A stretch of 64,000 nt of DNA from Leucobacter musarum subsp. musarum. GTDB lineage: Bacteria; Actinomycetota; Actinomycetes; Actinomycetales; Microbacteriaceae. Below, in pieces: positions 1-17,420 of the stretch. The translations under genes and the position numbers were made by a program. Within the stretch, counting starts at the first letter, position 1; every line of letters begins with the position of its first letter. The stretch is taken from contig NZ_JHBW01000068.1 in the NCBI RefSeq assembly GCF_001273845.1, forward strand, positions 62,001 through 126,000, in the 5' to 3' direction. The notes below the pieces were generated by a model, which was not told where the DNA came from, ran no database searches, and was given only the letters and a program-made list of their open reading frames with translations.

Positions 1-1
1 C

Positions 2-2113
2 GCAGTGCGCCTCTTGAAAGCACTGTTTTTGGTCAAGTACGTCGACAGCTTCAAGGCCACAGCTCGCAACCTCACCGTCTTGGTCTACGACCGATTCGGT
101 ACAGATCTCATCCAGCTTGGCAAGGACGTCAACGAAGCCCTCAACGCACTCGAAGCGCAGACGTACATTCAGCGCAACGGCGACCTGTACGACTACCTGA
201 CGAACGAAGAGCAGAAGATCGAGCAGGAGATCAAGGATGTCGACATCGATAACTCGGAAGTCTCCGCGAAGCTTAACAAGCTTCTTTCAGAGTCGGTCGT
301 GAAGGCAACAAAGACCGTCGCGAAGAACGGTCAGAATTTCTCATTCGGGTACAAACTTGATGGCACCCCGTATGGCAAGCAGCACGAGCTGGCGCTGCAC
401 TTCACTAGCCCCGAGACTGAGTTCAGCCTGGACCAGATCAAAGCGCACAGCGCGGGCCTCGATGAACTGCGCGTTGTTCTCCATGCCGAAACGAATCGGA
501 TCCTCGCTGATCTTCGTTTGCTGCTGAAGACCGAGAAGTACGTCAAGCGTGCGCAGGGGTCGAGTCGCACCGCGATCGAAACCCGCATCCTCGGCGAGAA
601 GGGCACCCAGAACGCCGAGCGCGAGAAGGAGATCATCGAAAGGCTCCGCACCGCGGTCGGCAGCGCGACGCTGATCCACAACGCTGCAGTGATCGACGTT
701 ACCGCCAGCGATGCACAGACCCGAATCAACGACGGCTTCGCGAAGGTCATTGCGGCCACGTACACCAACCTGAACATGCTGGGCGGCAAGACTTTCAGCG
801 AGCAGAGTCTGAACGGACTGGTAAACCCAGCAGGCGGCATGTTCGACGAGAGTCTCAGCATCCTGGAAGTGCCCGCCGATGATGTGCTCGGGCACCTGGA
901 GATGCGTAGCAAGCGGCATGAGATGGTCACGATGAAGCAGCTCGTCGATAGGTACTCCGCCAAGCCTTTTGGTTGGGACCAGTGGTCAATCGCGGCGGTG
1001 GTTGCACACCTCGCCGGACAGTCGAAGATCGAACTGCAGCTCGACGGCAAAACGCTCGCCCGCACCGAGATCACCGGGACGCTGCGCAACACGCAGCGAT
1101 ACCCGAATCTCGTCGTCGCCCCACAACGGGTCTACGACCAGAAGATCGTAAACGCTTTCCGCAAGTTCGTCATCGAGTTCACCGACGACGGAAGCCTCAC
1201 GAAGGACACTGCCGAGCTTGGCCGTATCGGGAAGGAGCATCTCGATTCCAAGCTCGCCGAACTGAAAGCACTGAGGTCCGGTGCTGCCGCGTATCCGTTC
1301 ATCGATCAGTTGGACGAGCCAATCCGACTGCTGAGCGGACTGACGGCAAACAATGCAGACTGGTACCTGGAACATTTCAACGAGGCTGACACTACTGCGA
1401 ATGAGCTCCTTGATGCGAAGGACAACGCGATCGATCCGATCAAGGCATTCCTCAACGGCAACCAGCGCAGCATCTATGACGGGGCGACTAAGTTCATGCA
1501 GCTCAACCGTACGAACCTTGCGTTTCTTACGGCGAGCGTTTCGGACGGAGTCGAGACCGCACTCGAGGATCCACATATCTTCCGAGGCAACAGGACGACG
1601 CAGCTCGGAACGGCGATTGCCGCACTACAGGCGCAGCTGAACGGCATCGTTTCCATGGAACGAGACGCTGCCATCGGATCGATCAACGACTACTGGAAGC
1701 AGGTGCCGGTAAGCGCCGCTTTTGAGGCTGCGACCGAGGCCGCACGTGGGTCTGTGGCACGCAAGGCCGACGCTGCGCGGGCGCGAGTGCAGCAGGAGAC
1801 GCAGATCCCGGCGATCCGCAATCTCGCGGCGCAGTTCGCCGACACGACCTACCCGGCCATCCTGGACGAGCTGGAATCGACGCGACAGCCGCAGCCGGAC
1901 CCGGCCCCTTCAGCGGAACCCGGCGTTGAGCCGACATCGCACGGCACCGTCCCTCCGATGCAACCACTCAAACAGAGCATCTCTATCAAGAAACTCTCGC
2001 TTCCGATGGCCGGGGGACTGCTCGAAACCGAGGACGACATCGATACCTACCTCGACGAGCTCCGCTCGCTGCTCGTCAACACGATCCACAACAACAAGCG
2101 CATTACTCTCTAA
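2..2113 (+). CDS. brxC: BREX system P-loop protein BrxC, C-terminal part (5' end outside window)
   Basis: The reading frame is already open at the first bases, so this is the last ~703 residues of a protein that is usually about 1200 residues long. BrxC is the large ATPase-family component of type 1 BREX, which modifies host DNA and blocks phage replication. The N-terminal P-loop part is off the window. What is visible is a long, mostly helical, charged region with the YDYLTNEE...IEQEIKD stretch found in BrxC proteins. The C-terminus has a Pro-rich linker near 1890-1950. Family identity rests on this motif and on the genes that follow (pglX 9 bp downstream, then pglZ and brxL). The internal GTG at base 5 is not a real start. 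brxA and brxB should lie just upstream, outside the window. Confidence 0.85.
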   Translation, partial: AVRLLKALFLVKYVDSFKATARNLTVLVYDRFGTDLIQLGKDVNEALNALEAQTYIQRNGDLYDYLTNEEQKIEQEIKDVDIDNSEVSAKLNKLLSESVVKATKTVAKNGQNFSFGYKLDGTPYGKQHELALHFTSPETEFSLDQIKAHSAGLDELRVVLHAETNRILADLRLLLKTEKYVKRAQGSSRTAIETRILGEKGTQNAEREKEIIERLRTAVGSATLIHNAAVIDVTASDAQTRINDGFAKVIAATYTNLNMLGGKTFSEQSLNGLVNPAGGMFDESLSILEVPADDVLGHLEMRSKRHEMVTMKQLVDRYSAKPFGWDQWSIAAVVAHLAGQSKIELQLDGKTLARTEITGTLRNTQRYPNLVVAPQRVYDQKIVNAFRKFVIEFTDDGSLTKDTAELGRIGKEHLDSKLAELKALRSGAAAYPFIDQLDEPIRLLSGLTANNADWYLEHFNEADTTANELLDAKDNAIDPIKAFLNGNQRSIYDGATKFMQLNRTNLAFLTASVSDGVETALEDPHIFRGNRTTQLGTAIAALQAQLNGIVSMERDAAIGSINDYWKQVPVSAAFEAATEAARGSVARKADAARARVQQETQIPAIRNLAAQFADTTYPAILDELESTRQPQPDPAPSAEPGVEPTSHGTVPPMQPLKQSISIKKLSLPMAGGLLETEDDIDTYLDELRSLLVNTIHNNKRITL

Positions 2114-2122
2114 GGAACAGGC

Positions 2123-5100
2123 ATGGACACGAAACCCCTAGAGAGCTTCGCGAAAGCCGCACGCCGCGAACTGATCGCCGCGGTCTCGGCGCAGGCGTCG
2201 GCAGCGCTCGCCCTCGGATCCGTCGCACGGACTGAACGAGCGGAGACAGTGCGCCGACTCGAAACCGAGATAGCGGCGCACGGCCACGAGCACGTGATCG
2301 ACAAGGTGGCCTACACCTGGTTCAACCGACTCATAGCACTGCGATTCATGGATGCGAAGGGCTACACAGGCGCGGGGATCGTCTCGCCCGCGCAAGGCCA
2401 AGCACACGGACAGCCCGAGATCCTCGCCGATGCGAAGCGCGGAGACATCGATGCTGATGTCGTCACGAGCTCCGCTGCGAGGGGCGCCATTCTCGGCCTG
2501 CTCGATGGCACTCGCCGCAGCACCGATGCGGAAGGCGAAGCGTACGCGCTGCTACTCACCGAGTACTGCCGATATTGGCACAAGTCCATGCCATTCATGT
2601 TCGAGCGCGAAGGCGATTACACCGAGTTACTTGTTCCCGCGGGTCTGCTCGCCGACGGCGGCATCGTGGCCCGCGCCCGTAACGTGCTCACCGAAGACGT
2701 CTGTGACGACGTCGAGGTCATCGGCTGGCTCTACCAGTTCTACATCTCCGAAAGAAAGCAGGAAGTGTTCGACGGGTTTAGCGCTAAGGGCGACGATCGG
2801 AAGCTCGCGGGGGCGGCGGAGATCCCCGCGGCCACCCAACTCTTCACGCCGCACTGGATCGTCCGATACCTCGTCGAGAACGCCATTGGCCGGTTGTGGG
2901 TGCTCAATCACCCGTCTTCCAGACTGCTAGAGCACATGGACTATTTCATTGCACCCGTCGGTGACGAGATCGAGTTCTTGAAAATCTCGAGGCCAGAGGA
3001 ACTCACTGTTCTTGATCCCGCTTGCGGTTCAGGCCACATGCTCACGTACGCATTCGATTTGCTCTACGCGATCTACGAGGAGTCAGGCTATGCGCCCTCT
3101 GAGATCCCGAGCTTGATCCTGTCTCACAATCTCCGCGGTGCTGAGATCGATCCACGTGCGGGTGCGCTCGCTGCGTTTGCTCTCACAATGAAGGCGCGAG
3201 ACAAGGATCGTCGGTTCTTTGGCCGAGGTACGAAGGCGAAGATCTGCGTGATTGAGCCGGTTTCGTTCCGACCCGACGAACTCGACCATTTGGCAACGCT
3301 CGACAGTGGCGCGGATGTGCGGGAAACATTCTGGACCATTTTTGAAGAAGCCGACACCCGCGGATCGCTAGTTGGGGCACAGTCGGGCGTCACGTCCGAC
3401 ATGGTTGATCGGCTGCAGTCTACGACTGATGAAGCAGGCCTGCTATGGGGTCCAACTCTTGAGAAGGCTCAGACCGTCGTAATGCAAGCGGGATTCCTTG
3501 CGCAAAAGTTCGCTGCAGTCGTGGCAAACCCGCCATACATGGGCTCTGGCAATATGGGTGCGTCGCTGACAGAGTTTGTAAAGGCTGAATACCCGGAGTA
3601 CCGGCAGGATCTCTATGCTTGTTTTGTGCGGAGATCAATGGACTTTGCACATGAGCACGGCATCGTCGCAGCGGTGACTGGAGACACTTGGATGTTCCTG
3701 CAGTCGTTTGAGAAGCTGCGTACGGACCTAATTGCGAGAGCATCATTCGCGAGCATGGTTCACGTGCGGGACTCAGGTAACCTGCCATCCAAATTTGGAG
3801 CAAACTCGGCCTTCGTGCTTACAGTTGCCGGTGCTGCGCTATCGGAGGCCGTGTTCGTACGCACGTCGGTGACGGGAGTCGACGCAAAAGGTCGTCAGGT
3901 GCTTGAGGCCTTGCGGCTTCGCGAGAGCAGCTCGGCTTGGTTTGAATGTTCGACCAATGATCTTGCGAGGATTCCGGGCGCTCCTATCGCCTACTGGCTG
4001 CCTGAGCCTTTGAGAGATGGGTTCAGCGCGTACCCCGCTTTGAGCCGGTCAGTCCCGCCAAAGCAAGGCATCAAGACAGGCGACAATGATCGCTTCCTGC
4101 GTTACTGGTTCGAAGTTTCGAAGGCATCGATAGGTGATGGTTGCACTAGAGACTCCGCGGCGCAATCGTCGTTTAGATGGTTCCCTTGTCAGAAGGGCGG
4201 CCAGTTCCGGCGTTGGTATGGGAACGACGAGTATGTGGTCAATTGGGCACGCGACGGTGAAGAGATCAAGGGTTTCCGTGACCCCGTTACAGGTCGTCAG
4301 CGCTCAAGGCCACAGAATCTTGGCTGGCTTTTCAAGGGAGGAGTCACTTGGGGCACAATTTCGTCGGGCCCAAGCTCGTTTAGGTTGAGCCGACCTGGTG
4401 CTATATCGGAATCGAAGGGGGCAATAGCATACGCGGCGAGCCCTGCTTTGGCCGCGGCGGCTCTCGGATTCCTGAATTCCACGGTCAGTTCTGCGCTCCT
4501 GTCCGCGATATCGTCCACGATAGATTACGGCGAGGGTGCTATCGGCAAGTTGCCGTTCGATGTGAGTCTTGCTGACGGAGAGCTAGTGGATTTGGTTACC
4601 AATTGCGTCGAAATCTCCGAGACTGATTGGCAAATGACTGAGACGGCGCCTGGATTTCAAAAGAACGAGTTGGTGACTGCGTCCTTTAGATCGGAAAATC
4701 TGGCGGCAAGCGTCGCGGCGGCGCGGAATCAGGCGCTCAGGCGCACTAATGAACTGCGTTCGAGTGAGAGGCTCATTAACGGCTTGGTTGCGTCACACTA
4801 TCGGCTTGAAGGCGAAGTCGAGATTGATGTTCCATTGGAACGAATTGCTCTCAACGGAAATGACGCATTTCGGTTCGGACGAGATAAGGCACCTTCGGCT
4901 CTGGAAGCTCGCAGACACTACGAGATGATGGTTGATCTGGTCGCGTACTCGATTGGTTGCATGTTCGGTCGCTACAGCCTCGACGTGCCCGGTCTGATCC
5001 TCGCGGATCAGGGTTCAACGCTTCAGGACTATCGCGCCAAGATTTCATCGCCATCGTTCCGGCCGGATGCTGACAACGTGATCCCGTTCGTTGATGATGG

Positions 5101-5656
5101 GTGGTTCGAAGATGACATCGTCGAACGGTTCCGTGAGTTCCTGCGGACGGCGTTTGGTGCAGAACACTTCGAGGAGAACCTGCGCTTCGTGGAAGAGTCG
5201 TTGGGAGTGAAGACGATGCGCGACTACTTCATCACGAAGTCGGGCAAGTCGAAATTCTACGACGATCACGTCCAGCGATACAAGCAGCGACCGATTTACT
5301 GGATGTTCTCTAGCCCAAAGGGGGCGTTCAATGCACTGATCTACCTGCACCGCTACACCCCGTCGACGGCCTCGACGGTGCTCAACGAGTACCTGCGCGA
5401 GTATGAAGCGAAGCTTACGGTCGCCCTTCAACAGGCCGAAGTGGCTGCCGTCGGTGGCGGGTCAGTCAAGGATCAGAAGGAGGCCGATCGACTCCGTAGG
5501 GTGCTTGCCGAGCTGCGCGACTACGAGCATGACGTGCTCTACCCGATCGCAACTAAGCAGGTTGCGATCGATCTTGATGATGGCGTGAAAGTGAATTACC
5601 CGAAGTTGCGTCCAGCGGTGAAGAAGATCGCAGCGCTGGAGGCGAGCGGTGGGTGA
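2123..5656 (+). CDS. pglX: BREX-1 adenine-specific DNA methyltransferase PglX
   Basis: At 1177 residues this matches the usual size of BREX-1 PglX, the N6-adenine methyltransferase that marks host DNA and sets BREX specificity. SAM motif I DPACGSG begins at residue 298 and the catalytic NPPY motif at residue 469, in the order typical of gamma-class (type I/IIG-like) enzymes. The part after about residue 560 would hold the target-recognition region. The C-terminus has the charged helical end seen in the family. The ATG has AAGGAA just upstream, overlapping the brxC stop, so the two are probably co-translated. Base composition drops noticeably in the middle third (about 3.0-5.0 kb), as expected for a recombining specificity region. 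The identity is well supported by motifs plus operon. Confidence 0.93.
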   Translation: MDTKPLESFAKAARRELIAAVSAQASAALALGSVARTERAETVRRLETEIAAHGHEHVIDKVAYTWFNRLIALRFMDAKGYTGAGIVSPAQGQAHGQPEILADAKRGDIDADVVTSSAARGAILGLLDGTRRSTDAEGEAYALLLTEYCRYWHKSMPFMFEREGDYTELLVPAGLLADGGIVARARNVLTEDVCDDVEVIGWLYQFYISERKQEVFDGFSAKGDDRKLAGAAEIPAATQLFTPHWIVRYLVENAIGRLWVLNHPSSRLLEHMDYFIAPVGDEIEFLKISRPEELTVLDPACGSGHMLTYAFDLLYAIYEESGYAPSEIPSLILSHNLRGAEIDPRAGALAAFALTMKARDKDRRFFGRGTKAKICVIEPVSFRPDELDHLATLDSGADVRETFWTIFEEADTRGSLVGAQSGVTSDMVDRLQSTTDEAGLLWGPTLEKAQTVVMQAGFLAQKFAAVVANPPYMGSGNMGASLTEFVKAEYPEYRQDLYACFVRRSMDFAHEHGIVAAVTGDTWMFLQSFEKLRTDLIARASFASMVHVRDSGNLPSKFGANSAFVLTVAGAALSEAVFVRTSVTGVDAKGRQVLEALRLRESSSAWFECSTNDLARIPGAPIAYWLPEPLRDGFSAYPALSRSVPPKQGIKTGDNDRFLRYWFEVSKASIGDGCTRDSAAQSSFRWFPCQKGGQFRRWYGNDEYVVNWARDGEEIKGFRDPVTGRQRSRPQNLGWLFKGGVTWGTISSGPSSFRLSRPGAISESKGAIAYAASPALAAAALGFLNSTVSSALLSAISSTIDYGEGAIGKLPFDVSLADGELVDLVTNCVEISETDWQMTETAPGFQKNELVTASFRSENLAASVAAARNQALRRTNELRSSERLINGLVASHYRLEGEVEIDVPLERIALNGNDAFRFGRDKAPSALEARRHYEMMVDLVAYSIGCMFGRYSLDVPGLILADQGSTLQDYRAKISSPSFRPDADNVIPFVDDGWFEDDIVERFREFLRTAFGAEHFEENLRFVEESLGVKTMRDYFITKSGKSKFYDDHVQRYKQRPIYWMFSSPKGAFNALIYLHRYTPSTASTVLNEYLREYEAKLTVALQQAEVAAVGGGSVKDQKEADRLRRVLAELRDYEHDVLYPIATKQVAIDLDDGVKVNYPKLRPAVKKIAALEASGG

Positions 5657-5737: not shown

Positions 5738-8242
5738 ATGAGCAAGACGCCAACCATTGCTGATCACCTCGCGGATCGTTTCGAAGGCGCGCGCATCGTT
5801 GTATGGCACGACGCTGACGGCAGTTATACTGACGAGCTCGAAGGTCAGTTGCCCGTCGGGGTCAGGGTGCTGTGCGTTGCCGGCAACGAGTTCGCCGTCA
5901 AACATCGAATCTTGCGCGAGGACAAGGTGTCGAAGTTCCTGATCTATCGCACCGGCAGCGTGCCCGAGGGCGTGGGGAACTGGCTGCTGGACATTGAGCT
6001 CGCGAACGGCCCGATCTTCACCGCAGACCGCAGCGCGCTTATGGTGGCTACCCTCGGCCTGACTGGACCGGGTGCCGTCGAGCTCGTTGCGCAGCATTCC
6101 AGGTTCTTCGGGGACAGCAGGTTGGTGTCAAGGTTCCGCGCACTGCTCTCGCCTGGAGATGACCCGACTGTCGTACGTGCGAAGATGTGCGCGGCGTTGC
6201 TAGGGCAGAAGGAGCACAGCTTCTCCGAGCTCACCCGCACGCTACTGATCCAGTACGCAGACGGTAGCGCTGCCGGGATCGATGCCCTTCGGAAGCACGA
6301 GCTTGCTGACTTCCATTGGGGCGGCGCCGAGCACATCTACGGTTATGCAACGGAGGCCCCGACTATCGCGGGCTTCGCTCTTTGGATGTTCCAGCGCGCT
6401 GCCGAGGGCTTTGACACCGCCTCCTCGAACAAGGCACGAAATCTTGCCATCGACTTCCGCAGCTTCCGTGATTCCAAGCGGAGCGCGCCCGCGATGAAGG
6501 TACTTGCGCGAAAGATTGAAGACGACCTCAGCTACAAGGACGTCACTACGCAGCTGCCCTGGGAGACGCTCCAAGACTCAGATGTCTTCGAGGCATCCGA
6601 GCGTGAAGTTATCCACCGTCTCGTCGAGAGCATCGTGTCGCAGAGGATGTCGACGCGAGACGTCCTCGACACGATCAGCGCGCGACGCCGCGAAAGTTTC
6701 TGGTCCGACGACTACGCGACGCTATACGACGGACTGAGCGCCGCGGCAGAGTTGATCCCTGCGATCCGAACCGCGAAACTCGAGGTCGCATCCTTTGACG
6801 ACGGGCTGACGCGGTATCGCGATGAGTGGTTTCGCATCGATCAGCTCTACCGACTGTTCACCCATGCTTACCTGACCGCGGAGTTCAAACAGCCGCTCGA
6901 AGCGTTGGGTGACCTTGTGGAGAACGCGTACGTTACCGACTTCCTGGCGAAGCTCGGCGCGAGCTGGCAGGCGCAGGTCGACGGGGTCGAGCGTTGGCGC
7001 GCTATGAACGTCCCTGCGCAATCATTGTTCTACGAGCACTACGTAGCCAAGGTCCTTAAAGGTCGTAAGAAGGCAGTCGTCGTCGTCTCGGATGCTCTGC
7101 GTTACGAGGTCGCTGAAGAGCTCACTTCGAGCATCCGTGGTGAGAACAAGTTCGAGGCCAAGATCGAAGCGATGCTGGGCGTGCTTCCGAGCTATACGCA
7201 GTTGGGAATGGCGTCTCTGCTGCCGAACCAGACGCTGGCACATTCGCCAAACGGCGATCCCGTGTTCGTCGACGGGCAGAAGTCAGACGGCACTGCGAAC
7301 CGGACGAAGATTCTTGGCTCTGTTGGCGGAGCAGCGATCCAGGCTAAGACCTTCATCGAGATGAAGCCGGGCGAGCGCCGAGATCTGTACGCATCCCACC
7401 AGGTGCTCTACGTCTACCACGACACGATCGACGCCACCGGTGACAAGGCGGTGTCGGAGCATCGCACATTCGCTGCCGCAGCGGACGCGATCCGCGAGCT
7501 GCTCGACATCATCAAGAAGCTCGCGAGCGCGAACGCGACGAATATCTTCGTGACCGCAGACCACGGCTTCTTGTACCAGCGGTCGAAGCTGGCGCCACAG
7601 TTCAACCTCACCGTGAAGCCGCAGGGTGAGAAGATCGTGGCTGAGAAGCGACGCTACGTGCTCGGACGAGGTCTGAAACAAGATCCAGCATTGCGCACAT
7701 TCCAGCCGGAGCAGATCGGGCTTTCGAGCGACCTAGAGGTGCAGATTCCGAACTCGATTCAGCGCATCGTGCAGCCCGGTGCCGGGTTCCAGTTCGTGCA
7801 TGGGGGAGCGTCACTGCAGGAGATCGTCGTGCCCGTCATCTCAATCAACAAGGGTCGCAGCGACACAGTCGAGTCCGTCAACGTTGATATCCATCCGGAG
7901 TCTGACAAGATCACGACCGGGCAGGTCGTGGTGAAGCTGTACCAGTCGACCAAGGTGGAGCCGAACCGGCCCGCGCGGCGGCTGCGCGCTGGGCTCTACT
8001 TCGGGGAGCAGCTGATTTCGAACGAGCAGGAGATGACTTTCGACTCGGACAGCGCGGAAGGACGCGACCGGTTCCAACGTGTGACGCTCTTGCTGAGTAA
8101 GGACGCCGACAGCGCAAATAACCAGAGTGTTGAGTTCCGGCTGTCGGAACCGATCGAAGGAACCGACCAGTGGAAGAAGTATCGAGGTGTGCCGTACACG
8201 GTGAAGCGCGCCTTCGCGAGTGACGACGGATGGGATTTCTGA
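5738..8242 (+). CDS. pglZ: BREX-1 PglZ alkaline-phosphatase-fold protein
   Basis: 834 residues, a normal size for BREX-1 PglZ. The C-terminal half carries the alkaline-phosphatase-superfamily core: VVVVSDALRYEV with metal-ligand Asp452, and TADHGF with Asp608/His609. PglZ is required for BREX host methylation and phage exclusion and belongs to the metal-dependent phosphatase/nuclease fold. The N-terminal half is the family-specific region without recognisable catalytic motifs. The gene follows pglX after an 81-bp gap that holds no convincing gene. The ATG is preceded by a purine-rich GAGGA about 8 bp upstream. The 3' end overlaps brxL. The metal-binding residues look intact, so the protein is probably active. 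Confidence 0.92.
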   Translation: MSKTPTIADHLADRFEGARIVVWHDADGSYTDELEGQLPVGVRVLCVAGNEFAVKHRILREDKVSKFLIYRTGSVPEGVGNWLLDIELANGPIFTADRSALMVATLGLTGPGAVELVAQHSRFFGDSRLVSRFRALLSPGDDPTVVRAKMCAALLGQKEHSFSELTRTLLIQYADGSAAGIDALRKHELADFHWGGAEHIYGYATEAPTIAGFALWMFQRAAEGFDTASSNKARNLAIDFRSFRDSKRSAPAMKVLARKIEDDLSYKDVTTQLPWETLQDSDVFEASEREVIHRLVESIVSQRMSTRDVLDTISARRRESFWSDDYATLYDGLSAAAELIPAIRTAKLEVASFDDGLTRYRDEWFRIDQLYRLFTHAYLTAEFKQPLEALGDLVENAYVTDFLAKLGASWQAQVDGVERWRAMNVPAQSLFYEHYVAKVLKGRKKAVVVVSDALRYEVAEELTSSIRGENKFEAKIEAMLGVLPSYTQLGMASLLPNQTLAHSPNGDPVFVDGQKSDGTANRTKILGSVGGAAIQAKTFIEMKPGERRDLYASHQVLYVYHDTIDATGDKAVSEHRTFAAAADAIRELLDIIKKLASANATNIFVTADHGFLYQRSKLAPQFNLTVKPQGEKIVAEKRRYVLGRGLKQDPALRTFQPEQIGLSSDLEVQIPNSIQRIVQPGAGFQFVHGGASLQEIVVPVISINKGRSDTVESVNVDIHPESDKITTGQVVVKLYQSTKVEPNRPARRLRAGLYFGEQLISNEQEMTFDSDSAEGRDRFQRVTLLLSKDADSANNQSVEFRLSEPIEGTDQWKKYRGVPYTVKRAFASDDGWDF

Positions 8243-10371
8243 TGAGCGACGACATCGACCTGACCGCAGCCCTGCCTCTAGCGGACGCGGCCGATAGCGA
8301 GGTCACGCAGGAGATCGTCCCGGAGAGTGAACTCGACCGGAAGATCAACGAGCATTTCGCTGGCGCCGTTGTTCGCAAGGATCTCGTCAAGGCTGTCAAA
8401 GGCAACGCGATCGTGCCGTCGTACGTGCTGGAATACTTGCTCGGGCAATACGCGGCATCCGACGACGAGGCGACGATCCAAGCGGGCATCGATAAGGTGC
8501 GGAGCATCCTCGCCCAGCACTACGTGCATCGCAACGAGTCGGAACTGGTCAAGTCGAAGATCCGTGAGAAGGGTCGATTCCGGATTATCGACAAGGTCAG
8601 CGTCACGCTGAACGAGAAGGACGACGTCTACCAGGCGTCGTTCGCGAACCTCGGCATCAGCGGTGTGATCGTCGAGGCGAGTACCGTCAACGCGAATCAG
8701 AAGCTCTTGGTTGGTGGGGTGTGGGGCCTCTGCGACATCGAGTACTCCCACAACGAAGATGCCCGTGTCGTGCCGTGGATTCTCGGGAGCCTGAAGCCTA
8801 TCCAGATGTCGAACTTCGACTACCAGGGCTACCTCGAGTCCCGTGCGAAGTTCACCACCGACGAGTGGATCGACTTGCTCATCCAGTCGATCGGCTTCAA
8901 CCCTGAGACGTTCGGGCGACGTGCCAAGCTGCTGCAGCTCATCCGTCTGATCCCTTTCGTCGAGCGGAACTACAACCTCGTTGAGCTCGGTCCGAAGGGC
9001 ACCGGCAAATCGCACATCTACTCGGAGTTCTCGCCACACGGCATGCTGATCTCCGGCGGCGAGGTCACCGTACCCAAGCTGTTCGTCAACAACGCCAACG
9101 GTCGCCTCGGCCTTGTCGGGTACTGGGACGTCGTGGCCTTTGACGAGTTCGCGGGCAAGAAGAAGCGCACCGATAAGGCGCTCGTCGACATCATGAAGAA
9201 CTACATGGCCAACAAGTCGTTCTCTCGTGGCGTCGAGACGCTGGGCGCCGAAGCATCGATGGTGTTCGTCGGCAACACGTCACACACGGTGCCCTACATG
9301 CTTAAGCACTCCGACCTGTTCGACGAGCTGCCTGAGAGCTACCACGACTCGGCGTTCCTCGATCGGTTGCACTTCTACATCCCGGGATGGGAAGTCGACA
9401 CGATCCGCAGCGAGATGTTCTCGAACGGCTACGGGTTCGTCGTCGATTACATCGCGGAAGTGCTCAAGTCGATGCGGAACTTGGACTACTCCGATAGGTA
9501 CCAGCAGTACTTCACGCTCGGCTCGGATATCTCGACCCGAGATCGCGACGGCATCCACAAGACCTTCTCGGGTCTCATGAAGTTGCTCTACCCGCATGAG
9601 CAGGCAACGCCTGAAGAGATCGAGGAGATACTGCGCTTCGCGATCGAGGGACGAAAGCGCGTCAAGGACCAGATCCTCCGGATCGACGACACGATGGCCG
9701 TCGTGAACTTTGGGTATATGTCGCTAGCCTCGGGATGGACCGCTGTCACGACGCTGGAAGAGGAAGAGTACCCGTCGCACTACTATCGTGGTCGGCCTGT
9801 TGTCGCTGGTGTTGAGCCCCCGGCAGAGGCTCCCGCGGTCGTGCCCGACCGCGGGACGTCACCGGAGTCGATACCAGTGGAGCTGTTCCAGGGGCAGCGT
9901 GACTTCGTCGAGAACCAGCGAGGCGTCTCCTATGAGAACCTGTTGATGCCTTACCTGCAAGGTGCGGCCGAGATCGAGTTCCATGATCCGTACATCCGCC
10001 AACCTCACCAGGGTCGCAACCTCGTGGAGCTGCTGGCTCTGATTGCTGCGGCGAAAGACCCCGCGGACGAAGTCACGTTCAAACTCTTCACCCTGCTCGA
10101 AGATGACGCGGAGTACCAGAAGCGCCAACTTCAGATGCTCAGTGAGATCGTGAACGGCGCAGCGCAGCAGGGTATCAAGGTCGACGTTGGGAAAGACCCC
10201 GGCGGACACGATAGATGGATCCGTACCGGCACTGGTTGGCGGATCAACCTCGGCCGCGGACTCGACATCTTCCAGAAGTCCGACGGCGGCTGGTTCGACT
10301 TTGGGACGACGCGGCAGGAGTTCCGCCAGGTGAAAGCCTTCGGTGTGACCTACATTCGCACGGACAGTTGA
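8242..10371 (+). CDS. brxL: BREX protein BrxL, AAA+ core with MITD1-like C-terminal domain instead of a Lon protease domain
   Basis: BrxL is the AAA+ effector of type 1 BREX. Walker A GPKGTGKS lies at residues 250-257 and a Walker-B-like VAFDEFAG follows about 40 residues later. The core ends in a PSHYYRG segment near residue 510. The usual C-terminal Lon-type Ser/Lys protease domain was not found. Instead, residues ~555-709 read like the phospholipase-D-like C-terminal domain of eukaryotic MITD1 (MIT_C): DPYIR at 582-586, then HDRWIR at 656 and GRGLDIFQ at 671-678. I chose the ATG at 8242, which shares TGATG with the pglZ stop. An in-frame ATG at 8230 would add four residues. Last gene of the operon; no T-rich terminator was seen after it. 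Confidence 0.88.
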   Translation: MSDDIDLTAALPLADAADSEVTQEIVPESELDRKINEHFAGAVVRKDLVKAVKGNAIVPSYVLEYLLGQYAASDDEATIQAGIDKVRSILAQHYVHRNESELVKSKIREKGRFRIIDKVSVTLNEKDDVYQASFANLGISGVIVEASTVNANQKLLVGGVWGLCDIEYSHNEDARVVPWILGSLKPIQMSNFDYQGYLESRAKFTTDEWIDLLIQSIGFNPETFGRRAKLLQLIRLIPFVERNYNLVELGPKGTGKSHIYSEFSPHGMLISGGEVTVPKLFVNNANGRLGLVGYWDVVAFDEFAGKKKRTDKALVDIMKNYMANKSFSRGVETLGAEASMVFVGNTSHTVPYMLKHSDLFDELPESYHDSAFLDRLHFYIPGWEVDTIRSEMFSNGYGFVVDYIAEVLKSMRNLDYSDRYQQYFTLGSDISTRDRDGIHKTFSGLMKLLYPHEQATPEEIEEILRFAIEGRKRVKDQILRIDDTMAVVNFGYMSLASGWTAVTTLEEEEYPSHYYRGRPVVAGVEPPAEAPAVVPDRGTSPESIPVELFQGQRDFVENQRGVSYENLLMPYLQGAAEIEFHDPYIRQPHQGRNLVELLALIAAAKDPADEVTFKLFTLLEDDAEYQKRQLQMLSEIVNGAAQQGIKVDVGKDPGGHDRWIRTGTGWRINLGRGLDIFQKSDGGWFDFGTTRQEFRQVKAFGVTYIRTDS

Positions 10372-10798: not shown

Positions 10799-11737
10799 CT
10801 ACCACGCCAGATAGTGCACCCCCCCGCGCTGCATGCGCTCGATCTGGTCCATTCGCGCCATCACGACAACTCCGGTGCCGGTGGCGTTCGCGCCGAGCGG
10901 GGTGAAGTGTTCTCGGGCGGTACATTCGCGGCCGTCAGCCGAGCGCACCTGAGTCTCGAAGTACGCGCGCCCGTCGCCGTGATCGACGACCAACTCTGAC
11001 ACCGGCCCGGCCGCCGCCGCTTCGACGAACTCGCGGGCAAGTGCGGCGTTCTCGACGTTGGCGTCGCGCCACCACTCGCCGTCGCCGACGTGCAGTCCGA
11101 TGCTGTCGGAATCGCCCGTCGTGCGTACCCAGTGCACGGCGGTCGCGCCCTCGCGATGCGGCACGATCGAGAGCGCCGAGCGATCGGAGCCGCGCCTGAT
11201 CGTCGTCACGTCACCGAAGGTTGCCTCGGCGAAGTCCGCGGCCTGCTCGAGAATCTGGCCAACGGGGTCGAGCATCCGAGCGAGATCGCGGGCGCGGTGG
11301 CGTTCTTGGGCTTCTCGCCATTCGCGGGCGCTCGTGCTTTCCACGTAGGTGGGGAGCTCGGTGGAGTCGGGCACTTCGAGTTCGACGAGGTATTCGGAGT
11401 GGTGGTGATCTGCCGTATCTGCATCTGACCCCGGGACATTGACGAGACTCGTCACCCGCGGGTGTGCGGAGTCGCGCTCGAATGTCATCGGTTCGCCGGG
11501 GACCGCGAGATCCGGATAGGTGATGCCCTGAATCGCAATCACGGTGCCGGCAACCGACCAGTGCGGCACCTCGTCGGGGGTCTCGTCGTGGCGTTCGTCG
11601 GTGAAACGGGGGAGAGCTCCCGCGGGGGTGTGTGCCGGATCCGCCGCGACAAGATTCCATCTCATCTCGTCACCGATCGCGAACGCGTCGCCGCAGCAGA
11701 CCTGCTCCCACCCGCTGACCATGACTTCGATGCGCAT
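10799..11737 (-). CDS. Uncharacterised protein with N-terminal Cys-Cys-Gly motif (DUF6578-like)
   Basis: 312 residues from the ATG at 11737; the frame stays open upstream, but that stretch is Arg-rich shadow sequence. The start region reads MRIEVMVSGWEQVCCGDAF, and this GWxxxCCGxxF pattern recalls the DUF6578 family of actinobacterial unknowns. The middle is acidic and has a run of His (DHHHSEYLVEL). The C-terminal half looks like a compact alpha/beta domain with no catalytic motif I recognise. There are no membrane segments or signal peptide, so it is probably cytoplasmic. It is followed on the same strand by nothing obvious and preceded by another small unknown gene 74 bp upstream. The function is unknown. 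Confidence 0.6.
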   Translation of the reverse strand: MRIEVMVSGWEQVCCGDAFAIGDEMRWNLVAADPAHTPAGALPRFTDERHDETPDEVPHWSVAGTVIAIQGITYPDLAVPGEPMTFERDSAHPRVTSLVNVPGSDADTADHHHSEYLVELEVPDSTELPTYVESTSAREWREAQERHRARDLARMLDPVGQILEQAADFAEATFGDVTTIRRGSDRSALSIVPHREGATAVHWVRTTGDSDSIGLHVGDGEWWRDANVENAALAREFVEAAAAGPVSELVVDHGDGRAYFETQVRSADGRECTAREHFTPLGANATGTGVVVMARMDQIERMQRGGVHYLAW

Positions 11738-11811
11738 GCGTTCGAGTCTACGGACGGGTTGAGTGGTGGCCTGGGTGGGGGGGGTGCAGGCACGGCGGGC
11801 CCTGCGTCCCG

Positions 11812-12264
11812 TCACTGCGCGCGCAGCTCGATGGGGTCGGTGGCGCCGTCGGGGGTTTCGAGCGTCCACAGCTGGTCGGCGCTGGCCTCGGGCAGCAGCT
11901 GAGCGATCCACCCCGTCACCGCCGTGAGCACCGCGTGTTCGAGCTCGATGCGCCCCCAACCGCGAGGCGATGGCGGGACGTCGGGATCCCAGCCGTCTTC
12001 CGTCCACTCCACGCCGATGATCTGGCGCTCGTCGCCTACGCGGTGCTGGGTTTCGAATACCGACTCTTCGGGGAAGCGGGCCCAGATGTCGAACGGTCCC
12101 TCGGCGTCGTCGTCGACGAACACGTCGAGCACGACCTCGGTGAGGCCCGCCGCGCGTGCGGCGTCGGCGACGATCGCGAGTCTGCGTTGCGCGTCGGGGG
12201 CCATGGTGTCGAGCACCTCGCGGAGAGCGGCGGGGTAGTGGGCTGGGGTGGGTGCTGGTGGCAT
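11812..12264 (-). CDS. Hypothetical protein, 150 residues
   Basis: A small acidic, soluble-looking protein starting at the ATG at 12264 (MPPAPTPAHYPAALREVL...). Although the frame is open further upstream to about 12552, that part has shadow-like Arg/Pro/Ser composition. The body contains an Asp-rich stretch (FVDDDAEGPFDIW) and ends in a hydrophobic helix plus a short tail. No known domain was recognised. It probably forms a two-gene unit with the unknown gene immediately downstream on the minus strand, 74 bp away. Confidence 0.55.
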   Translation of the reverse strand: MPPAPTPAHYPAALREVLDTMAPDAQRRLAIVADAARAAGLTEVVLDVFVDDDAEGPFDIWARFPEESVFETQHRVGDERQIIGVEWTEDGWDPDVPPSPRGWGRIELEHAVLTAVTGWIAQLLPEASADQLWTLETPDGATDPIELRAQ

Positions 12265-13609: not shown

Positions 13610-13799
13610 GTTGCTTCTGCTCTCTGAGGTGGAGACACCTCGCAGAACCTACGTTAAGGGCTGACGTTGCAACTTCCAAGGTGTGACGGGTCGTGGAGCG
13701 CGCTCAGAATGCGTCGTCCGCGATAGGTATTTTCTTCGTTTCTGTCCCGCTCTATTCGCACGTGTGCTCAATGTCGGTGGCTGCTGGTTGAGTGAACGT

Positions 13800-15416
13800 A
13801 TGGCATCCGTCACCATCGCACCGCTTGCATCGCTCTCGCTGAGCGCGATGCCTGACGCGGCTGCGGGTGCTCCGGGCGCCTCCGGGGCGGGCGCTGGCTC
13901 GGGTGCGGTGACGCAGATTATGTGGTGGATCGAGCGGCTCGAGCAGCAGCAGCGCGCCCTCGACGCTGCCCGCCTCGAACTGCTGAACGCAGCACTTGAA
14001 GCGGCGACTGGTTTGGGCGCTGGCAACGATGCATCCCGTTGCGATGCGGGTTCGCGCAACAGAGAGCTCGAGTATCGGGCACTGCGAGCCGACCTCGCCG
14101 GCGTGCTCGGCGCGAGTGAGCGTACCGCCGAATCGCAACTTGATACTGCCTGGCGTGTGCGGCACGACTATCTCGCGGTGCACGAAGCCTTGGCAATCGG
14201 CGAGATCACCGTCGGTCATGCGCGCGTGATTGCCGACGCTGGGGTGCGCGTCGGGTCTGGATCCGCCCCCGACGTCGTCGCGCGGCGCTCAGCTTACGAA
14301 GCCGAAGTGCTGACGCACGCGCGCGTCGAATCTGTGAACCGGTTACGACCGATCGCGCGCCGCATTGCTGAGCAGCATGCCGTCGAATCTCTCGACGAAC
14401 GACACCGCGAGGCCGCGCGCGAGCGGCGCGTGATGGTGCACGAGCGTGAAGATGGCATGTCTGACCTCACCGCATACCTGCCGACCGTTGAGGCATTCGC
14501 GATTCACGATCGGCTGACGCGTATCGCTCGTGAGGCGCAGCGTGTGGAAGCTGCGCGGGTCGACGGTGAGGCGCAGGATTCGGTGCATGAGGTCGGCGAA
14601 GCGCCGGATGCACCCGTGCGGCGGCGCGATGAGGTGCGTGCCGACGTCTTCGTCTCACTGCTCCTCAACTCTGACCTGATGGAGGTCGACTGCTCGAAAT
14701 CGACCGCCGGGTCGATGCGTGCGCGCGTGCAGGTGATCGTTCCGGTCGAGGGGCTTGCAGGGGTCGCGGCTGAAGTTGGTGCCGGCTTGGGAACGAGCTT
14801 CGCGACGAACGGTCGTGAAGGGCGAGGCGCCGAGCGCGATCATGACGTCGCGGAGCTCATCGGTGCGGGGCCCGTGCCGGTTGGCAGCGCTCGAGAAATT
14901 GCGGCCGAAACGCCCGTCTGGGAGCGAGTCACGGTCGAGTCCACGACCGGAAGCGTTCTCTCGGTCAACCGATACCGTCCGAGCGAAGAGATGCGGCGTC
15001 GACTCGGTGCCCGCGACCAGCACTGCCGGTTCCCCGGGTGCCGGGTTCCGCTTTCTCGCTGCGATCTTGATCACACTGTCGATGCGGCGCTGGGCGGGGC
15101 GACCGCCACCGACAACCTGGCGCACCTGTGCCGCGGGCATCACACGCTCAAACATCACACCGGGTGGCTCGTGGAGCAGCGCGATGGCGGCGACTTACTC
15201 TGGACGAGCCCGACGGGTCGCAAGATCCCCGACCGGCCACCGAGCCGGGTGAGGTTCGCGCGAGTTCGAAGCGGAGACGACGATGACGGGGACGATAACC
15301 CCCAGATAACTGCGGGCGGAGCAAGACGTGCGTTGCAAGGCGAACGACCGTGGACAGGTTTGCCCTCGAAAAACTCGGGCGGGGTGACCGGCCAGGATTC
15401 TCAGCATCCTTTTTGA
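13800..15416 (+). CDS. DUF222 / HNH endonuclease-signature protein (13E12 repeat family)
   Basis: 538 residues from the ATG at 13800; a GTG-started frame is open from 13683 but that stretch looks non-coding. The N-terminal and middle parts are the DUF222 helical region. The C-terminal HNH motif occupies residues ~400-455: CRFPGC, then the catalytic DLDHTV, then NLAHLCRGHHTLKHH. Actinobacterial genomes carry many copies of this family, often associated with mobile or repeat regions. The cellular function is not established, although HNH nucleases cut DNA. Codon use is like the host chromosome, unlike the BREX genes, so it may not belong to the same acquired block. Confidence 0.85.
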   Translation: MASVTIAPLASLSLSAMPDAAAGAPGASGAGAGSGAVTQIMWWIERLEQQQRALDAARLELLNAALEAATGLGAGNDASRCDAGSRNRELEYRALRADLAGVLGASERTAESQLDTAWRVRHDYLAVHEALAIGEITVGHARVIADAGVRVGSGSAPDVVARRSAYEAEVLTHARVESVNRLRPIARRIAEQHAVESLDERHREAARERRVMVHEREDGMSDLTAYLPTVEAFAIHDRLTRIAREAQRVEAARVDGEAQDSVHEVGEAPDAPVRRRDEVRADVFVSLLLNSDLMEVDCSKSTAGSMRARVQVIVPVEGLAGVAAEVGAGLGTSFATNGREGRGAERDHDVAELIGAGPVPVGSAREIAAETPVWERVTVESTTGSVLSVNRYRPSEEMRRRLGARDQHCRFPGCRVPLSRCDLDHTVDAALGGATATDNLAHLCRGHHTLKHHTGWLVEQRDGGDLLWTSPTGRKIPDRPPSRVRFARVRSGDDDDGDDNPQITAGGARRALQGERPWTGLPSKNSGGVTGQDSQHPF

Positions 15417-15566
15417 CCACGCACTCCGGCCGAAGGAAAGGAGCGCCACCTTCATGCAGCCGGGACCCAGATCGACATAGGTAAACGACGGCGAACACTG
15501 GTGTTTCGGTAAGCTCGATGTGCGTATTGGTTTGTGATTCAAATTTCCCGTTTGGAGGGATATCCC

Positions 15567-17420
15567 GTGGGTTTCCAGGCTCCGTTGTATGAGTTGAGTG
15601 ACTATTTGAAGCGCACAACATCGGGCAAGATCCAACTCCCTGATTTCCAACGAGGATACAAATGGGAAGACGAACGAATCCGTCAGCTACTCGTCACCGT
15701 TCTGAGTGGACACCCGCTTGGTGTCGTGATGCTTCTGAAAACGGGCAACGATCAGATTCGCTTTAAGCCTCGGCCAGTTGAGGGAGCTGAATCGACAGCA
15801 ACGGTAGCACCTGAAACGCTCCTTCTTGACGGTCAGCAGCGTTTGACTTCCCTGACTCAAGCCCTGACGGGGTCAGGCGTTGTCCGAACGATGGACAGCC
15901 GTGGAAAGCTCATGGACCGCAAGTACTACATTGACATCCAGACTGCAATCCAAGGCCACGAACGACTCGATGAGGCGGTGCTCTCGCTGCCGGGCGACGG
16001 CGTCGAGCGCACGAACTTCAATCGTGACGTCGTGCGTGATGTATCGACTCCGGAAAAGGAACGCGAAGCCGGACTGTTTCCGGTCAGCCTGCTCTTCGGA
16101 GACGCGATGAGTTGGCTGCTCGCGTATCCGGACCGCGATGCACTGATCGCCTTCAACGATCTCATTGTGAAGCCCGTGGGCACCTACAACATTCCCGCGA
16201 TCGAGCTTGATCAAGAAACGAGCAAAGCCGCGGTTGCGACAGTCTTCGAGAAGGTGAACGTTGGCGGGCTGCCTCTCAATGTGTTCGAACTGCTCACGGC
16301 GACCTTCGCTGGCGACGCCGAGTATTTCGCTCAGCACGGAACAGACTTTCGTCTCAATGACGATTGGAAAGTCACACAAGAGATGTTCGCCGTTCATCCC
16401 GTGCTTACGGGAATTGAGAATACGGACTTCTTGCAAGCGGTGACACTGCTCGCATCGCGCAAGCGCAACATGGAGCACACTGGCAGTCGCCGTCCAGCAA
16501 TCACAGCGAAACGCGAAGACGTGCTGAAACTCTCGCTCGCAGAGTACTTGGAATGGGTGCAGCCGCTGCGTGACGCATTCGAATGGGCAGCAAACTTCTT
16601 GGCCGATCGTCACATATTCGATTCGCGTTTTCTTCCATATCCGAAGCAGCTCGTTCCGTTGGCGGTTATTCGCGTCATCATGGGGAAAGACGCCGATCTC
16701 ATCGAACCACGGCAAAAGATCGTGCGATGGTTCTGGTGCGGGATCCTCGGGGAGCTCTACGGCAGCACGATCGAAACTCGGTTCGTTCGCGACGTCGAGC
16801 AAGTGCCGAATTGGGCAAATGGTGACACGGGCGCAGGCACGCCCAACACGGTCAACGATGCGACCTTTGTTGAGTCACGACTGCACTCTCTAAGAACCCG
16901 AAACGCTGCAGCCTATAAGGCCATCTACGCCCTGCTTTTGGGAAATCGTGCGCGTGATTGGATGGAGGACAAAGCCCTCGACCAAGCCCACTATGCGAAT
17001 GCCGCCGTAGACATTCACCACATCTTCCCGAAGCGTTGGTGTGACGACCATGGCATTGACAGTGAACATCGAGAAAGCATCGTCAATAAGACCGCGATTT
17101 CGGCAGTTACCAACCGCACGATCGGGGGTGTCGCGCCGTCGATCTACCTCTCTCACATTGAACGCAAAGCACAGATCGAGAGCGATCGGCTCGATGTGCT
17201 TCTTGAAGCTCACCTGGTTCCTGCCCGAGAGCTTCGAACCGACGACTTCGCGAAGTTTTTCAGTGTGCGGCGTTCCCGGTTGTGCGATCTCGTTGCGGCC
17301 GCGATGGGTAAAAACGTGCCCCGAGATGTCGAGGACGGGCTGGCTGCGGAAGACTCGTCCCAATTCGAGCCATCGCGGGTCGCTGAAGAGGTGTCGGAAC
17401 TCGATATCTCGATCAACTAG
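15567..17420 (+). CDS. GmrSD-like restriction protein: DUF262 domain plus C-terminal HNH (DUF1524-type)
   Basis: 617 residues. The N-terminal DUF262 domain shows LPDFQRGYKW (residues 24-33) and the conserved DGQQRLTSL motif (88-96). The C-terminus carries DIHHIFPKRW (from residue 482) followed by NKTAISAVTNRTIGG, an HNH/DUF1524-type nuclease signature. GmrSD enzymes are modification-dependent restriction systems that cut phage DNA with modified bases. Related DUF262 proteins act as stand-alone defence nucleases. The start is the GTG at 15567 because a strong GGAGGGA lies 6 bp upstream. A GTG at 15534 in the same frame has no such site. Composition is lower in GC than the following genes, which fits a mobile defence gene. 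Substrate specificity cannot be read from sequence. Confidence 0.88.
   Translation: MGFQAPLYELSDYLKRTTSGKIQLPDFQRGYKWEDERIRQLLVTVLSGHPLGVVMLLKTGNDQIRFKPRPVEGAESTATVAPETLLLDGQQRLTSLTQALTGSGVVRTMDSRGKLMDRKYYIDIQTAIQGHERLDEAVLSLPGDGVERTNFNRDVVRDVSTPEKEREAGLFPVSLLFGDAMSWLLAYPDRDALIAFNDLIVKPVGTYNIPAIELDQETSKAAVATVFEKVNVGGLPLNVFELLTATFAGDAEYFAQHGTDFRLNDDWKVTQEMFAVHPVLTGIENTDFLQAVTLLASRKRNMEHTGSRRPAITAKREDVLKLSLAEYLEWVQPLRDAFEWAANFLADRHIFDSRFLPYPKQLVPLAVIRVIMGKDADLIEPRQKIVRWFWCGILGELYGSTIETRFVRDVEQVPNWANGDTGAGTPNTVNDATFVESRLHSLRTRNAAAYKAIYALLLGNRARDWMEDKALDQAHYANAAVDIHHIFPKRWCDDHGIDSEHRESIVNKTAISAVTNRTIGGVAPSIYLSHIERKAQIESDRLDVLLEAHLVPARELRTDDFAKFFSVRRSRLCDLVAAAMGKNVPRDVEDGLAAEDSSQFEPSRVAEEVSELDISIN

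Follow-up and report, generated by a model that had tools for sequence, protein, structure and literature searches.

The BrxL protein encoded in a 64,000-nucleotide stretch of the Leucobacter musarum subsp. musarum genome (contig NZ_JHBW01000068.1; this whole stretch is called the window below) ends in a domain that is homologous to a domain of human MITD1, the match being far beyond chance. BrxL is the product of the final gene of a type 1 bacteriophage exclusion (BREX) operon, and its C-terminal domain, named MIT_C in Pfam, lies at the place where other BrxL proteins have a Lon-like domain. By its homology to MITD1, the domain is predicted to have a phospholipase D (PLD) fold. The gene and the parts of its product are as follows, in window coordinates.

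8242..10371, + strand: brxL, 709 amino acids, final gene of a type 1 BREX operon (NCBIfam TIGR02688, E = 7.7e-192; PADLOC PDLC02508, residues 29-707)
8350..8745, + strand: BrxL_N domain, residues 37-168 (PF20442, E = 5.4e-48, 162.7 bits, over the family cutoff)
8779..9690, + strand: BrxL AAA+ ATPase domain (BrxL_ATPase), residues 180-483 (PF13337, E = 3.6e-131, 437.1 bits, over the family cutoff)
9691..9921, + strand: linker, residues 484-560, joining the AAA+ core and the C-terminal domain; its length varies among relatives
9922..10359, + strand: MIT_C, the MITD1-type PLD-like domain, residues 561-706 (Pfam PF16565, human MITD1 match, AlphaFold2 model)
9985..9999, + strand: DPYIR motif, residues 582-586 (among 44 aligned domains, D582 in 42, P583 in 44, R586 in 43)
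10207..10230, + strand: HDRWIRTG, residues 656-663, at the place of the PLD motif HxKx4D (HxR, with glycine at the D/N position)
10255..10266, + strand: RGLD, residues 672-675 (invariant, in 44 of 44 aligned and 124 of 124 distinct domains)

The match to PF16565 (E = 2.8e-35, 121.7 bits against a cutoff of 25) covered the whole model, positions 1 to 142 of 142, and a sequence search of the PDB aligned human MITD1 with residues 554 to 685 (4a5z, E = 1.4e-16) and 552 to 685 (2ymb, E = 4e-16). With a profile of 44 bacterial domains (the window copy, 37 of the 113 domains fetched, and six plasmid rows), MITD1 was found in the PDB at an E value of 3.9e-43, and the next-best match was at 0.087. The AlphaFold2 model of residues 539 to 709, made from 32 rows, is an alpha/beta domain with a mean predicted local distance difference test score (pLDDT) of 94.3 and a predicted template modeling score (pTM) of 0.88. 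These results bear out the initial annotation of this DNA, which had assigned the C terminus to a MITD1-type domain from motifs that are indeed present and had regarded the AAA+ core as that of a normal BrxL. Besides the BrxL_N and BrxL_ATPase matches, the BrxL structures 8emc and 8emh aligned with residues 27 to 492, and with these only. TIGR02688 scored 637.9 bits against a cutoff of 329.3, and PDLC02508 reached 1,095 bits over its span. The match to TIGR02653, which describes full-length Lon-tailed BrxL, ended at profile position 466 of 675 and, at 607.8 bits, fell below the cutoff of 628.25. A profile match of the C terminus to Lon had been named as a possible refutation of the MITD1 assignment; among the five Pfam families listed for BrxL with E values of 10 or less (most matches above ~0.1 being filtered out), Lon_C was absent and MIT_C was found instead.

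The domain also differs from the Lon-like tails in how it is joined to the core. In 113 distinct MIT_C-type proteins, the stretch that separates the AAA+ core from the DPY motif is 93 to 135 residues long and rich in A, E, T, and P, whereas the Lon-like BrxL tails have a total length of 216 to 222 residues (34 tails). Because of this variable length, the PLD-like domain looks tethered.

As to what the domain replaces, the initial annotation spoke of a Lon protease domain, which is right by position but wrong in the word "protease." In an alignment of 34 of the 36 tails labeled Lon-like (those longer than 200 residues), the column of the Lon lysine held no lysine in any tail and the column of the serine held a serine in one (L157), so that the pair occurred in 0 of 34; the columns were placed by what we take to be the Ser-Lys motif of Lon. 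The published structure describes the canonical C-terminal domain as Lon/RadA-like, without a protease motif, and as joining two DNA-binding rings (PMC10164562), and Lon-like BrxL C termini are described as noncatalytic in two papers (PMC10164562, PMC12839542). A working protease in the canonical BrxL tail was thus rejected, and the contrast drawn earlier, between membrane docking and protein degradation, is poorly founded.

Occurrence of MIT_C and other BrxL tails

One pattern scan of genome contigs from Actinomycetota, with a single motif pattern containing RGLD, gave at least 569 confirmed relatives, from which 80 loci were kept. In all 80, some or all of the BrxL core is in frame with MIT_C, and the fusion was therefore rejected as an assembly oddity. 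The core was shorter than 400 residues in eight loci (L021, L028, L036, L043, L044, L050, L070, and L081); some of these lie at contig ends, and L036, L043, L044, and L050 are mere remnants. In three propionibacterial genomes (L043, L044, and L050), the remnant is a 334-residue frame holding the end of the core and MIT_C; the frames of L043 and L050 are nearly identical, and the fetched stretches of all three had no pglZ match. Among the 80 loci, some of which are cut by contig ends, pglZ was a neighbor in 70 and pglX in 64.

A sample of 296 genomes from the phylum, including the source genome, yielded 21 BrxL_ATPase matches in 20 genomes. Nine had a Lon-like tail, five MIT_C, five a Schlafen AlbA_2 domain, and one a protein kinase domain, and one was a short fragment (L106, a 58-residue frame), which was left unlabeled. 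These labels came from home-made profiles, with Pfam run on 14 of the 15 labeled phylum loci without MIT_C (all except L090); Pfam Lon_C was over its cutoff in six of the nine Lon-like tails and under it in L093, L095, and L107. A core-based scan of viral contigs gave 55 loci, with 27 Lon-like and 18 MIT_C tails, 8 tailless, and 2 unlabeled. Plasmid records matched the window domain in 25 cases, of which 17 were annotated brxL. The relatives known to lie outside Actinomycetota come from plasmids, the viral contigs having no named host, and phage records gave no match at an E value of 0.1. One plasmid locus, L136 (Rhodococcus opacus pCP135), has an MIT_C-type brxL directly after AbiEi/AbiEii toxin-antitoxin genes; the gene table for the 6.5 kb viewed, which is incomplete, lists no other BREX gene.

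The tail is probably also well represented in print, where 1,030 cases among 2,913 type 1 BREX taxa with BrxL are given as having an "HKD-endoDNase" in place of the Lon-like domain (PMC12839542). With this count, the at least 569 relatives, and 5 of 21 matches in the phylum sample, the rarity of the MIT_C tail that the initial annotation had implied does not hold. The "HKD-endoDNase" of Rakesh and Krishnan (2026) is a predicted domain of the PLD superfamily, with K changed to R, at the BrxL C terminus, and their paper credits an earlier Menshen paper for the BrxL HKD variant (PMC12839542). It is probably the MIT_C domain, judging from its position, its motif, and the full-length PADLOC model PDLC02508. 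The main text of PMC12839542 makes no mention of MITD or MIT_C. PF16565 is listed among BREX-associated families in a 2025 paper, where a 2015 BREX paper is cited for it (PMC12715929), and our literature search found no paper with both BrxL and MITD1. To all appearances, then, both the literature and databases already contain PLD-tailed BrxL. What is possibly new is that the MITD1 domain is closest to a minor BrxL lineage and that the tail of BrxL is a site of domain exchange, taking AlbA_2 and kinase domains as well.

For instance, the BrxL of L103 (1015-3480) has as its C terminus a Ser/Thr protein kinase domain (Pkinase, E = 1.3e-33) and no Lon-like or PLD-like domain, and in L087, L099, L104, and L101 the C-terminal domain is Schlafen AlbA_2 (Pfam, E = 5e-10 to 4e-17). 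A further AlbA_2-tailed BrxL, L090, has an internal stop and is labeled by the home-made profile only. A literature search for BrxL and Schlafen gave PMC12839542 alone, whose passages on Schlafen link it to BREX loci without fusing it to BrxL. A BrxL-kinase fusion goes unmentioned in the kinase passages of the same paper, no search aimed at such a fusion having been made.

History of the tail and the link to MITD1

In a tree of 64 of the 165 BrxL cores, taken after thinning, the main MIT_C clade of 25 rows stood apart from the rest (100/98). A second MIT_C group (L132, L135, and L168) fell together with two rows tailed by AlbA_2 and a Lon-like one (99/94). L105 was a long branch. In this tree, the AlbA_2 tail needed two changes, on two separate branches (three AlbA_2 rows), and the kinase-tailed row lay among Lon-tailed relatives. 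In a second tree, made with a simpler model and without L105 and the tailless rows, MIT_C needed two changes, and a single MIT_C clade appeared in 0 of 200 bootstrap trees. However, the approximately unbiased (AU) test does not reject a single clade (p = 0.126), and both trees were flagged for long branches. That MIT_C was gained a second time, independently, is therefore favored, not proven.

In the tree of the domain itself, human MITD1 grouped with the second, minor BrxL lineage (98/92), MITD1 being the only eukaryotic row and several of the other rows being long. Pairwise scores against MITD1 were 133 bits for L168, 119 bits for L109, and 63 bits for the window domain. Of the 17 loci from a further viral scan for the minor lineage, one was the L168 contig again, and 16 had some or all of the BrxL core in frame (only 118 residues in four). 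In the remaining one, the viral contig L198 (2294-4231), pglZ, read by eye, continues in frame into the last part of brxL, which is probably due to a deletion or an assembly error.

These histories allow a broader proposal, which we offer as possible rather than probable: the BrxL C terminus may be a slot for exchangeable effectors on a ring around DNA, taking Lon-like, MITD1-type PLD, AlbA_2, or kinase domains, and the PLD module of one BrxL lineage may be the nearest sampled relative of the MITD1 domain, so that an ESCRT-III-associated factor may have got its domain from an antiphage system. If this is true, one would expect the MITD1 pocket to bind phosphodiesters or even to act on them; the nearly invariant pocket common to BrxL and MITD1 predicts that the pocket, and not only a membrane surface, matters in MITD1. 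The role of BrxL in BREX is unsettled, and if its tails are interchangeable, a comparison of PLD-, Lon-, AlbA_2-, and kinase-tailed forms would test the contribution of the tail directly.

The conserved pocket and the role of the domain

Some features of the pocket were nearly invariant. First, among 124 distinct MIT_C domains, the histidine was present in 124, HxR in 123, and RGLD in 124; the sole HxR exception was an HxC in L111, a broken gene. Many loci were found by RGLD-containing patterns, so that the invariance of this motif is in part a product of the search, but of the 34 domains that searches without RGLD also reached, or alone reached, all 34 had RGLD, 33 had HxR, and 32 had D or N. 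Second, position +7 of the motif was D in 102 of the 124 domains and N in 20, the other two being the glycine of the window copy and a serine in L109, whose gene is annotated in pieces. Human MITD1 keeps the H, R, and N of HxR-x4-[D/N]. Third, the motif could be set in register with that of PLD proteins. A region of L006, a plain PLD protein, matches PLDc_2 (E = 1.6e-12) and, below the cutoff, MIT_C (E = 2.1e-4). In a profile alignment, which is weak (18 bits, E = 0.0084), HxR-x4-D falls on the HxK-x4-D of this protein. The catalytic HKD motif HxKx4D itself is absent from the HDRWIRTG of the window copy, where H is kept, K has become R, and D has become G. Finally, in comparisons of the window domain with seven relatives, the nonsynonymous divergence (dN) was 0.09 to 0.16, low against a synonymous divergence (dS) of 1.23 to 2.03 in six and saturated in one. 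This means that the window domain is under purifying selection.

Membrane sticking alone would not be expected to hold a pocket so tightly. This argument is suggestive and goes no further, because MITD1 keeps the pocket yet is described as a membrane binder.

The likeliest role for the MIT_C tail, one to which we give a little less than an even chance, would be to act on the phosphates of DNA as a module tethered to the ring of BrxL. Rings of BrxL bind DNA, and for the Lon-tailed form it is published that the core rings encircle double-stranded DNA and that the C-terminal domains join two rings tail to tail (PMC10164562). A PLD-fold domain with a conserved His/Arg/Asp pocket could then bind the phosphodiester bonds of the encircled DNA and, in most members, would probably also cut them, so that unmodified phage DNA would be nicked or held. 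On this view, the domain would be a DNA-directed BREX effector; it would be no protease and probably no membrane anchor. We favor this role because of the BREX operon context, the homology to MITD1, the weak link to PLDc_2 through L006, the near-invariant PLD pocket motif, the purifying selection on the window domain, the published HKD-endoDNase prediction, and the DNA rings of BrxL.

Several points weigh against it. The literature consulted has no record of nuclease activity for an MIT_C-type domain, and pocket conservation alone does not indicate DNA, given that MITD1 keeps it but is described as binding membranes. The link from HKD-endoDNase to MIT_C is itself drawn from position, motif, and the PADLOC model. 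In the Lon-tailed structure, the C-terminal domains are far from the DNA (PMC10164562), and a swapped domain may be structural only. One bacterial dynamin also bears an MIT_C domain. The HKD lysine is an arginine in 123 of 124 MIT_C domains, and the window BrxL has a G where 122 of 124 have D or N; this loss speaks against confident catalysis in the window copy, where catalytic power would be the least certain step of the proposed mechanism.

The best alternative, though a rather doubtful one, is a noncatalytic assembly module, a PLD-fold unit, possibly dimerizing, that would join two BrxL rings tail to tail in place of the Lon-like domain, or contact other BREX proteins, with the pocket binding phosphate without cutting. 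The missing D/N of the window copy fits such a module, and MITD1 is presumably a dimer. Its crystals have four chains per entry (4a5z, 2ymb), and in the solved BrxL it is the Lon-like C-terminal domain that joins the two rings (PMC10164562). However, the variable linker, set against the fixed Lon-like tails, fits a tethered domain better than rigid docking, and pure scaffolding leaves the near-invariant HxR unexplained.

Membrane docking, as the initial annotation had proposed, is unlikely. On this account, phospholipid binding would place BrxL at the site of DNA entry, much as MITD1 is reported to bind membranes through the same fold, which is required for abscission (PMC6015221). The best hint for membranes is a plasmid protein of Candidatus Thiodictyon in which Dynamin_N is combined with MIT_C. 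However, this protein is a lone example whose branch is very long, BREX is directed at DNA, and the PLD pocket motif is among the conserved residues, though MITD1 has the same. Net charge is no argument against membranes, since the window domain (-4; median of -4 for 44 domains) resembles that of MITD1 (-3). The dynamin protein (L110:4622-7465, Candidatus Thiodictyon syntrophicum pTs485) is a 947-residue dynamin-family GTPase with a C-terminal MIT_C whose motif, HDRYVVCD, has the D; a viral scan with the dynamin-MIT_C fusion turned up nothing useful. A second protein outside BrxL is the 349-residue IF2_N plus MIT_C protein of Paenarthrobacter sp. YJN-5 pYJN5-1 (L108:5434-6483), with no BREX gene annotated in the 12.5 kb viewed. 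Such non-BrxL proteins are probably undercounted.

Least probable of all is a sensing or regulatory module, in which BrxL would be switched by a ligand in the pocket, such as a nucleotide, a DNA end, or a small molecule that is phosphorylated; a tail slot that holds domains as unlike as Lon-like, MIT_C, AlbA_2, and kinase would suit sensors as it would effectors. Against it, we know of no ligand, and PLD and AlbA_2/Schlafen folds are often nucleases. A point mutant in the C-terminal domain of Lon-tailed BrxL changes its ATPase activity (PMC10164562), which is in favor of the sensing role.

Operon context and comparison with known systems

All of the genes expected beside brxL in a type 1 BREX operon (brxA, brxB, brxC, pglX, and pglZ) are present. 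The window opens inside brxC, and the genes before it were read from a longer stretch of the same contig (L137, in which window base 1 is position 12001).

5738..8242, + strand: pglZ, BREX-1 PglZ type A (TIGR02687, E = 9e-201)
2123..5656, + strand: pglX, BREX-1 methyltransferase (NF033452, 1,208 bits)
1..2113, + strand: 3' part of brxC
L137 9352-9957, 9960-10562, and from 10568: brxA, brxB, and brxC, respectively, on the same contig just upstream of the window

Pfam identified BrxA (E = 4.2e-48) and BrxB (E = 7.4e-34), for which NCBIfam gave no family at 0.001. The ATG of brxL overlaps the pglZ stop by 1 base, and an alternative in-frame ATG lies at 8230, 12 bases upstream of 8242. The source genome has one MIT_C match only, that of BrxL. 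About 5 kb downstream, at 15534-17417, is a GmrSD_N (DUF262-type) protein with PADLOC PDC-M55C and HEC-05 matches, probably a second defense gene. Between it and the operon lie a DUF6578 protein on the other strand (10799-12007) and a DUF222 protein with a weak HNH match (13683-15416).

Among known systems, the BrxL-HKD variant (PMC12839542; PDLC02508) shares with the window protein the BrxL N-terminal and AAA+ parts, a PLD-superfamily domain at the Lon-like place, and the change of K to R. The window copy differs in the G at the D/N position, and the link to MITD1 is not made in the main text of that paper. Lon-tailed BrxL (8emc, 8emh) is like the window protein in its N-terminal and AAA+ parts, over residues 27 to 492, but has a Lon/RadA-like C-terminal domain where the window has a PLD-like one (PMC10164562). 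The HKD proteins of PLDc_2 are linked to the family weakly in sequence, through L006, with the motif in register; unlike these, MIT_C has R for K and, by eye, [GD]RGLD about where PLDc_2 proteins have GSxN. Human MITD1 (4a5z, 2ymb) is homologous to the window BrxL over the whole domain, with DPYIR, HQ..N, HDR, GW.I, and GRGLD in both, whereas in MITD1 the domain is joined to an MIT domain, works with ESCRT-III in cell division, and is described as membrane binding (PMC6015221). Of the BrxL domains compared, those of the minor lineage (L168 and L109) are closer to human MITD1 than the window domain is.

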